Assembly (NCBI GenBank): GCA_030037995.1
Contig: JASHPQ010000187.1
Coordinates: forward strand, 1 to 51,262
Length of the DNA: 51,262 nucleotides
Source: Nitrososphaerales archaeon
GTDB lineage: Archaea; Thermoproteota; Nitrososphaeria; Nitrososphaerales; CADDZS01
Reading direction: 5' to 3'
In this document: piece by piece, positions 17,662 to 51,262 of the stretch
Layout of the letters: each line of letters begins with the position of its first letter
How positions within the stretch are numbered: position 1 is the stretch's first letter
The notes under the pieces: model-generated
Told to the model about the DNA's origin: nothing
Database searches by the model: none
Seen by the model: only the letters and a program-made list of their open reading frames with translations
Program-made: the position numbers and the translations under genes

Positions 17662-17746
17662 TTGTTACTGCCTCACCCGGACCATAAAGGGTTGAGCTGG
17701 CACCTTCATAGTTCTAGTCATCAGAACACCTGTTTTGAGTGTGGCC

Positions 17747-46254: not shown

Positions 46255-47562
46255 TCAGTTGAAGTCTGTTATCTTCCTTTGCTGGATCGACTGTCTCAAG
46301 AGTTCTGAATTTTCTATCCAATGAGGGCGCGAAATTAGGAAATTGGAGCAGGCATAGTCCAAAGCCTGGCCTATGGTGTCAAACCGCCTGTACTCCCCAG
46401 CCAAAAGACTGCGGATGCTCTCCCTGACGTTCCACACGCCGACGGGGAGGATGTAGCCTGGATGAATTTCGCGAAGCATGATTGCACCCGATTGCCTGCG
46501 GATTCTCGAGAGATATTCTGAGATCGCAAATCTCGTCGAGTAGTAGCACCCGCCTGGTTTGGCATAGGTCTTTCTTCCCCAGTATCCTTCAAAGTCGCCG
46601 ATCATCTCCGGGCGAGAGCCAGATTTGTTCCAAGCGGTGCCGGAGTGCCAAGCCTCTATCCACTCGTACTTCCACTTTTCCGGGGTAAGAATAGCAACGT
46701 ATACGTTGTCGAGATTGGTGAATGCAAACACGCGGAATTCGTCAATGGTCTCGTAATCCTTGATTTCCTCGATGAGCCGAAGGGACAGCGTACTGTCCAA
46801 GGCCGTGATGCTCCATCTCGTGGGCACTAACTTTCTCTTTTTCTTCTCGCCGAACACCCCTACAGAAAACGCCTTTTCCAGTTTTGAAAATAGTACGCCT
46901 TCCCGGTACAGGGCAAACACGGCATCGGCAGCTTTCAGATCCCTGTCGTAGTAGGCCTTCTCGATCCTGTGGTCTACAGAGATATTTCCCGCAGGCTTGA
47001 ACCCTTTCATAGGGGCACTTGGTCCGAACGGTTGGCTGTTCTCGCTGAAGGAAATCCGGCTCACTGGTTTTCTTGCGAGAGAGAGTTCCGAGTCGGCAGG
47101 CTTTGTCGACATGGAGACCTCCTGTAGCGTCTCGACTAATTTGGTGCCTAACTGAGCGTCCGAGACATTTGCTCTAAAGCAACCTCGTACCAAACTGTAT
47201 CTGTAGTCTACGATCTCCTCGATCGACTTTCCCTTCCAAAGCTCAGGAGTATCGAGGAATTCTGTGTCCCCGTAAATCGCCGGGACCATCGGTCCGATGA
47301 ACACCTTTGGATAGCCGAATCGCCCCACAAACACCCCGGGCGGCGAGGATCCTTGAATGAAATCGGAGTCCAAAAGGGTGCGGGCATTTCTGGCGAATCC
47401 CTCAGCCTTGGTGAGGATCGGGCATTTTGGTTTCCCGCAGAGAAGCTTCGCACCCCGGCAGGCAAGGCACATTTCCGCGGTCGGTCTTTCGATGACGAGC
47501 TTCGTCCTCCAGTTGGGCTTTGAGAGTAAGGGATTGGGAGCAAACCAAGGAAGAGAGGACAT
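46255..47562 (-). CDS. nreA: Archaeal DNA-repair protein NreA
   Basis: 435 residues, ATG start. N-terminal zinc site C32, C35, C42, C47 (CLACRGAKLLCGKPKC), then the Nre core: GVFVGRFGYPKVFIGPMVP, WKGKSIEEIVDYRYSLVRG, KPAGNISVDHRIEKAYYDRDL, TRWSITALDSTLSL, FTNLDNVYVAIL, WIEAWHSGTAWNKSG, YSTRFAISEYLSRIRRQ and EIHPGYILPVGVWNVRES. It ends in QQRKITDFN, a PCNA-interacting (PIP-like) box. Nre proteins are known in archaea to take part in repair of DNA damage with PCNA. The protein is complete and of normal length. Confidence 0.93.
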   Translation of the reverse strand: MSSLPWFAPNPLLSKPNWRTKLVIERPTAEMCLACRGAKLLCGKPKCPILTKAEGFARNARTLLDSDFIQGSSPPGVFVGRFGYPKVFIGPMVPAIYGDTEFLDTPELWKGKSIEEIVDYRYSLVRGCFRANVSDAQLGTKLVETLQEVSMSTKPADSELSLARKPVSRISFSENSQPFGPSAPMKGFKPAGNISVDHRIEKAYYDRDLKAADAVFALYREGVLFSKLEKAFSVGVFGEKKKRKLVPTRWSITALDSTLSLRLIEEIKDYETIDEFRVFAFTNLDNVYVAILTPEKWKYEWIEAWHSGTAWNKSGSRPEMIGDFEGYWGRKTYAKPGGCYYSTRFAISEYLSRIRRQSGAIMLREIHPGYILPVGVWNVRESIRSLLAGEYRRFDTIGQALDYACSNFLISRPHWIENSELLRQSIQQRKITDFN

Positions 47563-47792: not shown

Positions 47793-48227
47793 CTAGTCCA
47801 CGTTCGTCGGGATTGCGGAAAAGTCAAACCTGAACGTAGTCTCGATCCTACTATAGTTTTCAATATAATCCAGTGCAAACCTGTCAGCGTTTTTTTCAGT
47901 CCCCCGATGGTGACCCGACGAAGATCTGATGCAGTGGTACATCTCGTGAAGAACGACAAAGGGATCGAAGAAATAGTTTTGATCCGCAAACGAGATCGAA
48001 TTTGCTGATACGGAGTAAACCGCCAATGCTGTCTTCTTCCCCTTCGTGTGGCCGATCTCCAGCTTCGGAACTCTCAATCGGTATTTTCGGCTGAGAAGTT
48101 CTACCGCACTCTCCGTGTCCTTCGTCAAGATCAGCTTAACGATGGCCGCCTTGAATCGAGGCTGGTCAAGAAGAAGAAAATCCTCAAATGAGTCTGAATT
48201 CACAGAGGACCCGCTACCCTGCTCCAA
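47793..48227 (-). CDS. Small zinc-metallopeptidase-like protein (HExxH)
   Basis: 144 residues from a TTG; no in-frame ATG before the catalytic helix. The active-site helix is VVLHEMYHCIRS with H94, E95 and H98, and E111 in RGTEKNADRFALDYIENY is a suitable third zinc ligand (gluzincin-like ExxxAD pattern). Before it comes a strand-rich part (ALAVYSVSANSISFADQ) typical of small SprT/ImmA-type metallopeptidase domains. No signal peptide. Cytoplasmic protease or zinc protein; the substrate is unknown. It is followed by a tiny membrane protein gene. Confidence 0.75.
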   Translation of the reverse strand: MEQGSGSSVNSDSFEDFLLLDQPRFKAAIVKLILTKDTESAVELLSRKYRLRVPKLEIGHTKGKKTALAVYSVSANSISFADQNYFFDPFVVLHEMYHCIRSSSGHHRGTEKNADRFALDYIENYSRIETTFRFDFSAIPTNVD

Positions 48228-48307: not shown

Positions 48308-48751
48308 CTACTTCCACGCGACAATGAAGGGAGTATTTTCCTTATCCAGCAGTCTTCCTATAAAGTGCTTGAGGTAGCGGTCAATATTCAGCTTCAACGC
48401 ATCCTGTGGGGTGACCCAGATCGTACTCTGGATCTCGTTTGAATCCACTTTCGGCTCCTGATTTCCTTGGGCGCTACAAAGATAATCGAAAAAAATGAAG
48501 TGTGCCCGCTTCCAAAACTCTTTGGGATAAATTACCTGCTGAATGGAAATTAGCTCCAAGACCTTGATGTCAAGCCCTACCTCCTCTTTGATCTCACGGA
48601 CGAGAGCATCTTCACATGTTTCCCCCAGCTCTACATGACCCCCCGGAACCGTGTAGAGCCCCGGCCACTTGTGCGAGTCGCACAGTAGAACGCGTCCGTC
48701 TTCCCTCTGTATCAGACCACCTACGGTCGGCTCCGGGAATATTTGCTCCAA
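48308..48751 (-). CDS. Nudix hydrolase
   Basis: 147 residues from a TTG. A perfect Nudix box runs from G38 to L60 (G-x5-E-x7-REIKEEVGL). The preceding strands (TVGGLIQREDGRVLLCDSHKWPG) and the proline-glycine turn VPGGHVELGE fit the nucleotide-pyrophosphohydrolase subgroup. It hydrolyses a nucleoside diphosphate linked to some group; the substrate cannot be deduced. Divergent from the DUF5343 gene, with which it shares a 9-bp inverted element. Confidence 0.9.
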   Translation of the reverse strand: MEQIFPEPTVGGLIQREDGRVLLCDSHKWPGLYTVPGGHVELGETCEDALVREIKEEVGLDIKVLELISIQQVIYPKEFWKRAHFIFFDYLCSAQGNQEPKVDSNEIQSTIWVTPQDALKLNIDRYLKHFIGRLLDKENTPFIVAWK

Positions 48752-48768
48752 AAGATTCTGCTCTATTT

Positions 48769-48777
48769 CTTACTGCA
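48769..48777 (-). promoter_or_regulatory. TGCAGTAAG element before the Nudix gene
   Basis: Read on the minus strand TGCAGTAAG lies 17 nt upstream of the TTG start and about 10 nt below a weak TATA-like CATACATAC. An exact copy in the other orientation lies at 48859-48867. Confidence 0.45.
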
Positions 48778-48858
48778 TCCCGGTATGTATGTGTGCCCTT
48801 TTAGGTGGTGATCTTATCTCTCAAAGAGATCTGCGGAAAACATAAATTACTGTAATTG

Positions 48859-48867
48859 TGCAGTAAG
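48859..48867 (+). promoter_or_regulatory. TGCAGTAAG element before the DUF5343 gene
   Basis: Ends 10 nt before the ATG at 48878, directly below the TATA-like CATAAATTA (48841-48849). It is also the right arm of a local dyad TTACTG-8-CAGTAA (48847-48866). Together with the copy at 48769-48777 it places the same word at the same promoter position in both divergent genes. Confidence 0.45.
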
Positions 48868-48877
48868 GACTCCAAAA

Positions 48878-49795
48878 ATGACCGTAAGCCAATTTGAAGC
48901 GGAAGAACGATCTCACGAGAATTACGAGCAGGGCACTCTATCTGATGAAAATTCGAGGGCTAGCTCTGCTCGGGCAGGGGGTCTGCAAAGTAGAAGAAAT
49001 CCTCCCGCTCGAAATACCTCCAGATTCTGGTTTGAAAGATTCCTTACTGTTATTCAAAGGCAGAATCCCTCGGTCATAGATGTTTCCTTCCTGTCGCAGA
49101 TCGCGCCGAGCAACGAAGGAAAGCTTCTTGCGCAACTGAAGTTTCTGGGAGTCATCGACGAGCAGGGGAAACCGACCAAGCTCTTATCGCTGCTGAATAT
49201 GGTGGGGGAGGAGCAGAAAAAGGCCTTCCAGGAAATTGCGAGCGAAGCTTACAGAGAGCTCCAGACGGAGGTCAAGATGGACAAGGCGGTTCCAGAGGAT
49301 CTTGTAAATTTCTTCATCAGGAAATACGCTTTCACCAGGGATAAAGCAATCAACGCTGCAAGGTTCTACTTGTACCTCGTGGAAAAGAGCGGGTTTCCCG
49401 TATCCGGGGAGCTGGGGGCCTTTCTCACTGAAAAAGCCCAAAGCTCGGCTCAGTCCAATGGGGCAGCTTCGGTTGCAACGACCCGAGTTTCGGAGAGATC
49501 AGCCGTTCGGGTGCCAAACAGAGATTCCAGAAGCTCCGGACTCTCGTCAATTAGCCGGCAAAGTCAGCATAGAAAGAACCGCTCTTCTGAAATTGAGGAC
49601 CGGTCCCCCATTCAGGCGATCATCAAAATAAAGCTGGAGAAGGACACGCCGAAGGAGTACTGGGATAGGGTGCTTGCCCTGCTAGGCGAGAGACAGCACG
49701 CCGAGCTTTCCGCAGAGACGACGGGGGATCAGCCTAGCTCGGCATCAAGTGAAAATCTAGACCAAGAACTTTCGGGAGATTCCGCATTCACCTAG
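48878..49795 (+). CDS. DUF5343-like protein with long flexible ends
   Basis: 305 residues, ATG start. The N-terminal 45 residues are charged and disordered. Residues about 47-180 match the DUF5343 pattern: TSRFWFERFLTVIQRQNPSV, FLSQIAPSNEGKLLAQLKFLGVIDEQGKPT in two halves, EEQKKAFQEIASEAYRELQ, FFIRKYAFTRDKAINAARFYLYL. A Ser/Arg-rich linker (190-245) leads to a second short domain (IQAIIKIKLEKDTPKEYWDRVLALLG, in part). DUF5343 proteins are of unknown function and are often near regulatory or defence-like genes. Only this copy is present. Confidence 0.7.
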   Translation: MTVSQFEAEERSHENYEQGTLSDENSRASSARAGGLQSRRNPPARNTSRFWFERFLTVIQRQNPSVIDVSFLSQIAPSNEGKLLAQLKFLGVIDEQGKPTKLLSLLNMVGEEQKKAFQEIASEAYRELQTEVKMDKAVPEDLVNFFIRKYAFTRDKAINAARFYLYLVEKSGFPVSGELGAFLTEKAQSSAQSNGAASVATTRVSERSAVRVPNRDSRSSGLSSISRQSQHRKNRSSEIEDRSPIQAIIKIKLEKDTPKEYWDRVLALLGERQHAELSAETTGDQPSSASSENLDQELSGDSAFT

Positions 49796-50076: not shown

Positions 50077-51262
50077 TTAGCTGTTTGTCTTTACAGAAAC
50101 GGTTACTTCCTGGACAATTGGCTCCGAAGGCGTGCTTTCGCCGATCGCATCAGTTCCATCGACCCAGGCCATCTTGCGGCGAAGAGTAGACGTGTATAGG
50201 AGCTTCCAATCTAATCCTACCCTATCCGCCCAGGACTTGTAGACCCGCGGGTCGATGTAGTTGCGAAGGGATGTGTTTAGGTTGTAATCGCGAGTCATCT
50301 TGGTTAGCTCTACTTGTCTTGTCAGCTTTTCCACACGCTGCGCGAGCCTCGCTTTCTGCTTGTCCGTCTTCCCGACCTCTTGCTGCAGGTCTTTTAGCTT
50401 GTCTTCCTTTTTCTGCAGGGACTGCTCAAAGGTCTTCGGCGGCGTCCTCTTGTGATTGCATCTGACTGCGGCTTCGAGGTTTGCCAGCTTCGCCTGGTAG
50501 AGCTTGTCAAACTCCGGGGTGCCTTTTTCGAACTTGCCGTGTTTTTTCAAGTACGACTTTACAACAGAGGTAGCGTGGTACGTCCTAAACACCTTGGCCG
50601 TGACGCCTGGAGCGGCTTCGCTAAGGAACTCATTCACGTGTCGCGAAGTCACTCCGTCAAAGATCAGCTCTTCGGGGTTCTTTCCCTTCGTAAACTGCTT
50701 TAGGTTTTCAATTGCCACCCGGTCTTTGGGGTCAACTTCCAGTGTCTTTTGCCATCGAACATAGTCCTTTCCGTAAAAGTCAAAATCCACCGCGTTATCG
50801 CGAAACTTCAGATGCTCGACTCGTAGAGTGGATGCGCCAACCGTGTCGGCCTCGTCCTCGTCTTTCTCATCTCCTACCCTCATCGTCAGCCTGTCGATCA
50901 GAAAGCAGGCCGTGGCGATTCTACGAATTTTCATGTCCTTGGAGCTCATCGACTTTGAAATGAAGTTCCTCACCGTATCAATCGTCTTTTCCAGATCCAC
51001 GGCTTTGTCGTATTTGCTCTTGTCCCTTGCCTGCCGTATGCTCGATGAATCGTGGAGCCAGACGTACTTCACCTTGTCAGAAAGTTTGTCCGTCCAGCAG
51101 GCGATCCACATGCAATCCGGCGAGTGAATGATTTTCCACTTTCCGCTAGGCGGCGAAGCAGATTCATCCATATTGAGAGTGATATCGTCCTCAAGGATCC
51201 GCGGCTTCCAGTGGCCTCGCATAGGGTGCTGGCCTCTCCCCATGAATAATCCCGGCGGCTCG
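50077..51262 (-). CDS. top1: DNA topoisomerase IB, eukaryotic type, N-terminus outside the window
   Basis: Relaxes supercoils by nicking one strand through a 3'-phosphotyrosine. The frame is open to the window edge: beyond the Met at 51243 the codons still read EPPGLF, which belongs to the conserved EPPGLFxGRGxHP block, so the gene is cut. Catalytic residues are intact: Arg in LTMRVGDE, Lys in FYGKDYVRW, Arg in KVFRTYHAT, His in RCNHKRTPPK and the nucleophile Tyr in SLRNYIDPRV. A coiled linker (QKKEDKLKDLQQEVGKTDK...) precedes the C-terminal domain. Topo IB of this kind marks Thaumarchaeota and relatives among archaea. Confidence 0.95.
   Translation of the reverse strand, partial: EPPGLFMGRGQHPMRGHWKPRILEDDITLNMDESASPPSGKWKIIHSPDCMWIACWTDKLSDKVKYVWLHDSSSIRQARDKSKYDKAVDLEKTIDTVRNFISKSMSSKDMKIRRIATACFLIDRLTMRVGDEKDEDEADTVGASTLRVEHLKFRDNAVDFDFYGKDYVRWQKTLEVDPKDRVAIENLKQFTKGKNPEELIFDGVTSRHVNEFLSEAAPGVTAKVFRTYHATSVVKSYLKKHGKFEKGTPEFDKLYQAKLANLEAAVRCNHKRTPPKTFEQSLQKKEDKLKDLQQEVGKTDKQKARLAQRVEKLTRQVELTKMTRDYNLNTSLRNYIDPRVYKSWADRVGLDWKLLYTSTLRRKMAWVDGTDAIGESTPSEPIVQEVTVSVKTNS

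Follow-up and report, generated by a model that had tools for sequence, protein, structure and literature searches.

A tandem palindromic operator at the DUF5343 promoter and a probable repair regulon in Nitrososphaerales, with an RHH-like protein as candidate repressor

Introduction

The bacterial SOS response works through the LexA box, CTGT-N8-ACAG. Arc, MetJ, CopG and NikR are RHH repressors with tandem operators, and Arc, whose RHH dimers occupy paired subsites, provides the comparison for palindrome pairs spaced at 10–11 bp. In the open-licence literature, the control of archaeal DNA-damage genes has been worked out mainly for Sulfolobales. The available part of one report describes Orc1-2 with its ANTTTC element in the damage response of these archaea (PMC9738581). 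According to the accessible portion of another, the PPB2-iRadA-PolB2 operon of Sulfolobales is induced by DNA damage, and orc1/cdc6 and lexA homologs are enriched near polB2 in archaea and bacteria (PMC11791011). The archaeal RHH regulators aCcr1, SegB and CdrS are described in the available text of a third source (PMC12284271). Judged by title or the start of the abstract, none of the open-licence matches listed dealt, for these archaea, with an RHH repair regulator or with an operator of the kind described below; those listed for the motif letters included none that was archaeal by title.

Here, we analyze a 51,262-nucleotide contig of a Nitrososphaerales archaeon (JASHPQ010000187.1), referred to throughout as the window, together with related genomes of the same phylum.

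Results

An operator upstream of the DUF5343 gene

The preliminary description of the window had reported a 9-bp word at both promoters of a divergent gene pair, encoding a Nudix hydrolase and a DUF5343 protein, and had considered a shared regulator likely. The relevant features are as follows.

48308–48751, − strand: Nudix hydrolase gene, 147 aa, TTG start, divergent neighbor of the DUF5343 gene (Pfam NUDIX, 7.3e-25)
48769–48777, − strand: reported word, Nudix side; a lone half-unit, probably non-functional (no 11-bp partner; absent in 5/5 relatives)
48840–48847, + strand: TATA-like box ACATAAAT, assigned by eye; overlaps the operator by one base
48847–48866, no strand assigned: operator, two 9-bp palindromes with an 11-bp period, TTACTGTAA (48847–48855), TT and GTGCAGTAA (48858–48866), identified by window scan, conservation and enrichment
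48859–48867, + strand: reported word, DUF5343 side, TGCAGTAAG; falls within the operator's second palindrome, extending one base past it
48878–49795, + strand: DUF5343 gene, 305 aa; in the window, the gene that the operator targets (Pfam PF17278)

The two copies of TGCAGTAAG are the sole exact matches in the window (48769–48777 on the − strand and 48859–48867 on the + strand). Their distances to the start codons (17 nt to the TTG at 48751 and 10 nt to the ATG at 48878) and the dyad TTACTG-8-CAGTAA at 48847–48866 are as originally described. Two matches compare with 0.15 expected, and two or more were obtained in 2 of 100 shuffles. In the assembly as a whole (3.3 Mb in 323 contigs, 88% complete), TGCAGTAAG matched 10 times versus 14 for the reversed control; thus, the word itself is not enriched. 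The 9-mer was therefore rejected as the functional unit, the correct unit being a 20-bp tandem palindrome.

This operator consists of two TTACNGTAA palindromes 11 bp apart, located between the TATA-like box and the DUF5343 start, and its 3′ end lies 11 bp before the ATG. When TTACNGTAANNTTACNGTAA was searched at up to three mismatches, 48847–48866 was the single site in the window (0.06 expected; one site in 6 of 100 shuffles). The partial match noted earlier near 17665 does exist, as GCAGTAAC at 17664–17671 on the − strand, but it is a lone fragment, the window containing no second operator at up to three mismatches. The tandem palindrome precedes the DUF5343 gene at all seven loci with upstream DNA in the window's family, f1 (1–3 mismatches, the window's locus included), and in the aligned promoters (34 of 35 rows usable) an A/T-rich box stands immediately before the operator. 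These observations strongly support a regulator site at the DUF5343 promoter, and 48847–48866 is almost certainly a real operator.

The Nudix side is different. There, the word is a single half-unit with no partner at 11 bp. The Nudix gene is divergent from the DUF5343 gene in five relatives (G001, G002, G003, G004 and G006): the two genes are adjacent in G001, on the same contig; roughly 1 kb separates them in G002 and G004, and 4–5 kb in G003 and G006. In all five, the 300 bp upstream of the Nudix gene contain neither the word nor an operator of its own; in G001, these 300 bp extend into the DUF5343 operator. Even in genomes with a distant Nudix gene, the operator still accompanies DUF5343. 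The copy at 48769–48777 is therefore best read as probably a chance occurrence, and co-regulation of the Nudix gene by the operator's regulator was rejected. The earlier proposal was half right: the regulator site is there, supported by the seven loci and the genome-wide promoter set, at one of the two genes, where it is an operator of a family-wide and very probably repair-related regulon.

The DUF5343 protein scored 27.5 bits against PF17278, marginally above the gathering cut-off of 27. A search of 101 genomes with this protein gave nine with a match, eight of them in f1 (the window's genome included) and one distant; the eighth f1 match is a fragment at a contig end and falls outside the seven-locus count. 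The distant homolog, in G029, has no operator (best 7 mismatches). Among named records, the gene is present in five (two designated Nitrososphaerales archaeon, one Thaumarchaeota archaeon and two archaeon). The full-length structural model was poor (pLDDT 48); that of the core, encoded by 48992–49438, was mostly helical (pLDDT 84), and a comparison with solved structures returned no PDB match at E ≤ 0.001 or Z ≥ 5 and no DNA-binding fold. A type IB DNA topoisomerase gene adjoins DUF5343 (50077–51243), and a 144-aa ORF containing HExxH, with no Pfam match, lies at 47793–48227.

Enrichment, spacing and placement of the operator

In nine f1 genomes, TTACWGTAANNNTGCAGTAA at up to two mismatches gave 119 strand-matches versus 7 for the control; outside f1, the corresponding counts in 22 genomes were 17 and 20. 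The symmetrical pattern TTACNGTAANNTTACNGTAA, also at up to two mismatches, gave 85 sites in the nine genomes versus 12 for the reversed control. When perfect pairs of TTACNGTAA were counted at gaps of 0–25, 22 of the 24 had a gap of 2, one a gap of 13 (two periods) and one a gap of 19; the control yielded no pairs. The palindromic subsites are thus about one helical turn apart, with a period of 11 bp in 22 of the 24 f1 pairs (10 bp in the second family, f9, described below). For placement, 82 of the 85 sites were fetched, and only 3 of the 76 merged arrays lay deep within an ORF of ≥150 aa, compared with 53% of the bases. A control with random windows was left out because, beyond the masked zone, it took in genuine sites.

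Arrays of three palindromes at the 11-bp period occur at G000:C315, G003:C81, G005:C43 and G004:C108, an arrangement that would fit the cooperative binding of three or more dimers. At many sites, the ORF that follows is unidentified. Copies of an IS605-like OrfB element, recognized by eye (L121, L123, L124 and L128, in G007), carry an operator before the transposase-like ORF, as if the element had joined the regulon in this genome. The Nre DNA-repair gene has an operator upstream in G001 and G005 (L010:161–180 and L099:2474–2493; 2–3 mismatches), and the Nre gene of the window (46255–47562) has none (best 7 mismatches), which suggests site turnover.

Genes preceded by the operator in family f1

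Proteins encoded downstream of the sites were clustered and the resulting families checked across the genomes, with sites counted at up to three mismatches. The recurrent targets are DNA-damage-tolerance genes: RadA, an operon of the PPB2-iRadA-PolB2 type, a stand-alone PolB2-type polymerase, PCNA, photoproduct-lyase-like enzymes and an RHH-like protein. In this family, a common operator thus stands before recombinase, translesion polymerase and presumed repressor genes. The RHH-like gene has the operator in its own promoter at 9 of 9 loci (8 genomes), RadA of the regulon type at 7 of 7 loci, and PPB2, recognized by its MGRT/LGRT start, at 7 of 7 loci in 6 genomes. Second RadA paralogs of f1 have no operator in the three fetched of nine (best 6–8 mismatches), and none of the 20 RadA loci of other families has a site closer than 4 mismatches. 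Eight further PolB loci taken as controls mostly start mid-protein, so that their upstream stretches are not promoters.

In three loci (L060, L076 and L112), the order is operator, small MGRT/LGRT ORF, Rad51-like gene, second small ORF and polymerase; in G004, the operator array precedes iRadA, and in G003, G006 and G007, the polymerase is on a contig other than that of the PPB2-type operon. PolB2-type genes outside the operon have an operator of their own in 4 of 4 cases (at most 2 mismatches) and those inside it in 0 of 5 (best 4–7 mismatches), as expected if the first gene of the operon carries the site. Operator sites and PolB2 gene order therefore move together. The iRadA-type protein matches Pfam Rad51 at 9.8e-7. 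The polymerase is of the B family by Pfam, and the NCBIfam polymerase models all score below cut-off, giving only "type B polymerase". The names PPB2, iRadA and PolB2 rest on the gene order, the MGRT start, the Rad51 match and the description in the accessible portion of PMC11791011. The PolB2-type polymerase of G006 (L100:1637–4099) contains an intein (Pfam 2.9e-16).

PCNA has the operator in two genomes, the two examined for this gene, and radical SAM enzymes resembling SPL form a target cluster in four, the one protein tested matching Pfam SPL at 6.7e-7. Some targets are not repair genes. They include a small membrane-protein family (four genomes), the IS605-like elements of G007 and, in f9, trpE. 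In G008 alone, a gene that appears FtsZ-like by eye has a 2-mismatch operator 110 bp upstream.

A second family with 10-bp phasing

Upstream of a distant RHH-like gene and of radA, G016 and G030 have a related dyad in common. The corresponding pattern, TACNGTA-N3-TACNGTA (TACNGTANNNTACNGTA), occurs exactly in 15 of the 16 genomes of family f9, with 58 sites versus 9 for the control, and outside this family at 7 sites in 5 of 85 genomes versus 11 for the control. The phasing of this operator is 10 bp. The sixteenth genome, G083, has no exact site; its two diverged copies of the RHH-like gene have sites with 3 and with 2 mismatches, the latter overlapping the start codon. The f9 genomes are 1.2–1.8 Mb in size and presumably belong to Nitrosopumilaceae.

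We fetched 40 regions, 36 of them from nine f9 genomes (in the ninth, G086, one of three sites was left unfetched). The f9 radA has a 10-bp-phased site in 9 of 9 fetched genomes, mostly overlapping the ATG, and a gene for a 115-aa protein with weak winged-helix matches has a site at its start in 8 of 9. The promoter of the RHH-like gene's f9 ortholog contains a site in 15 of 16 genomes (one mismatch in 14, two in the other); one half of this site is degenerate. Three further upstream rows (L281, L282 and L285) were excluded due to misplaced starts, and the other ten non-ortholog rows (L275, L277–L280, L284 and L286–L289) show 3–6 mismatches to the 10-bp pattern.

Two f9 targets were unexpected and unrelated to repair: trpE, assigned by eye, in six genomes and a divergent small Cys-containing ORF in seven (L221, L231, L236, L241, L245, L249 and L254). 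In f9, the 115-aa gene is followed by one for a PAC2-like protein, and a PAC2-like gene has a site in G001 (L072); this pairing was made by eye.

The candidate regulator

The RHH-like protein is 122–128 aa long. In an alignment of 21 of the 36 rows, its N-terminus has, by eye, a strand-helix-helix pattern, and its C-terminus a conserved Cys-x7-Cys-x-His. Searches returned no NCBIfam match for the one member tested and no Pfam match above cut-off for two. For the 21-member family, the best Pfam E-value was 0.0033, to an unrelated family, and a NikA-like (RHH) match at E = 0.0077 was obtained for one of the 21 members. Against PDB profiles, the best match, at E = 0.95, was TraM, an RHH protein. 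The RHH assignment is accordingly a predicted one, drawn from sequence pattern only.

Of 200 genomes of the phylum, 48 have a match to this protein family, including 29 of f9; none was detected in G001, a genome 70% complete. Families f1 and f9 differ in the predicted strand (FSVITIT versus FKSITVS) and in the core bases and phasing of the operator. Strand and operator thus appear to covary, as far as can be judged from two clades.

Discussion

Taken together, the sites are fairly likely to be the tandem operators through which an autoregulated RHH repressor would control an SOS-like regulon. Individual parts of this reading differ in strength. That the genes form a repair or damage-tolerance regulon is highly probable; that the RHH-like protein binds the operator is likely; and that it would be a repressor released upon damage is only slightly favored.

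In the proposed mechanism, one repressor dimer would occupy each palindrome, with two and sometimes three dimers bound next to each other at intervals of one helical turn; adjacent RHH dimers would block transcription initiation by occlusion. The repressor would be the 122–128-aa RHH-like protein, autoregulated through the operator in its own promoter. DNA damage would lead to its release, raising RadA, the PPB2-iRadA-PolB2-type polymerase, PCNA, the photoproduct-lyase-like enzymes and DUF5343, which would amount to an SOS-like response without LexA as the regulator.

Chance alone, with a short word happening to occur twice between the two genes, would agree with the lack of 9-mer enrichment in the assembly and with the absence of the Nudix copy from all five relatives. 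It nevertheless has next to no credibility for the locus, given that the 20-bp unit is enriched, regularly spaced, placed outside genes and conserved; already refuted for 48847–48866, it is the preferred explanation for the Nudix-side copy only. It is unlikely, if far less so, that the operator and its regulon are real and the regulator is another protein, such as DUF5343, the 115-aa winged-helix-like protein of f9 or some other, with the RHH-like gene simply one of the targets. DUF5343 invites this reading by having the operator at all seven f1 loci with upstream DNA, and the 115-aa protein by the sites at its start and its weak winged-helix matches. However, in 101 genomes DUF5343 is confined to f1 and one distant homolog devoid of a site, the cluster of 115-aa proteins came exclusively from f9 sites, in contrast to the RHH-like gene, which has sites in f1 and f9 alike, and palindrome pairs at 10–11 bp suit RHH dimers.

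Alternatively, the RHH-like protein might time RadA, PolB2 and PCNA expression in the cell cycle rather than respond to damage. The available text of PMC12284271 places the archaeal RHH regulators aCcr1 and CdrS in the cell cycle, and the FtsZ-like gene would fit. We regard this role as improbable: the FtsZ-like site is found in a single genome, a photolesion-repair-like gene is among the targets, and the core target resembles the translesion PolB2 system, reported as damage-inducible in Sulfolobales in the accessible part of PMC11791011. The reading we prefer remains a damage-responsive regulon under the RHH-like protein.

The regulon suggests that archaea possess a counterpart to the SOS response of bacteria. 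A broader version of this proposal stands evenly balanced between right and wrong. In this version, the counterpart would extend across at least two Nitrososphaerales families, from the uncultured family of the window up to probable marine ammonia oxidizers; an autoregulated RHH-like Cys/His repressor would sense damage and release radA and a PolB2-type mutasome; and the operator, in its core bases and its phasing (11 bp versus 10 bp), would have co-evolved with the DNA-contacting strand. A conserved operator, repair targets few in number and a single obvious candidate for the repressor make the damage response directly testable in Nitrososphaerales, including the culturable ammonia oxidizers of the order. 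If true, this would bring the PolB2-type mutasome under the control of a defined switch and assign a function to uncharacterized proteins such as DUF5343, which, as a member of a damage regulon, would be a damage-response protein.

Comparison with known systems

As in the bacterial SOS response with LexA and its SOS box, one operator precedes recombinase and translesion polymerase genes and the gene of the presumed repressor itself, and it adjoins the core promoter. In contrast, the operator described here is a tandem pair of complete palindromes, not of the LexA type, and the presumed repressor is RHH-like and too short to contain a LexA-type protease domain. The short palindromic units about one turn apart, the small RHH-like protein and the sites in its own promoter are instead shared with tandem-operator RHH repressors, from which the candidate differs by its C-terminal Cys/His cluster and by belonging, in the members tested, to no Pfam or NCBIfam family at cut-off. 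Its operator is also unlike the SegB site, given as TCTAGA-S-TCTAGA in the available text of PMC12284271.

The Sulfolobales damage response, with Orc1-2/ANTTTC and TFB3, is likewise archaeal, and PolB2 (Dpo2) is induced after damage there, according to the accessible parts of PMC9738581 and PMC11791011. Both motif and protein class differ, Orc1-2 being an AAA+ winged-helix protein that acts on a 6-bp element. The PolB2 mutasome operon described in the available portion of PMC11791011 has a small MGRT/LGRT protein, a Rad51-like protein, a second small protein and a B-family polymerase in the same order as here. Unlike the polB2 neighborhoods reported there, the operon of these Nitrososphaerales is tied by a common operator to radA and to the RHH-like gene.
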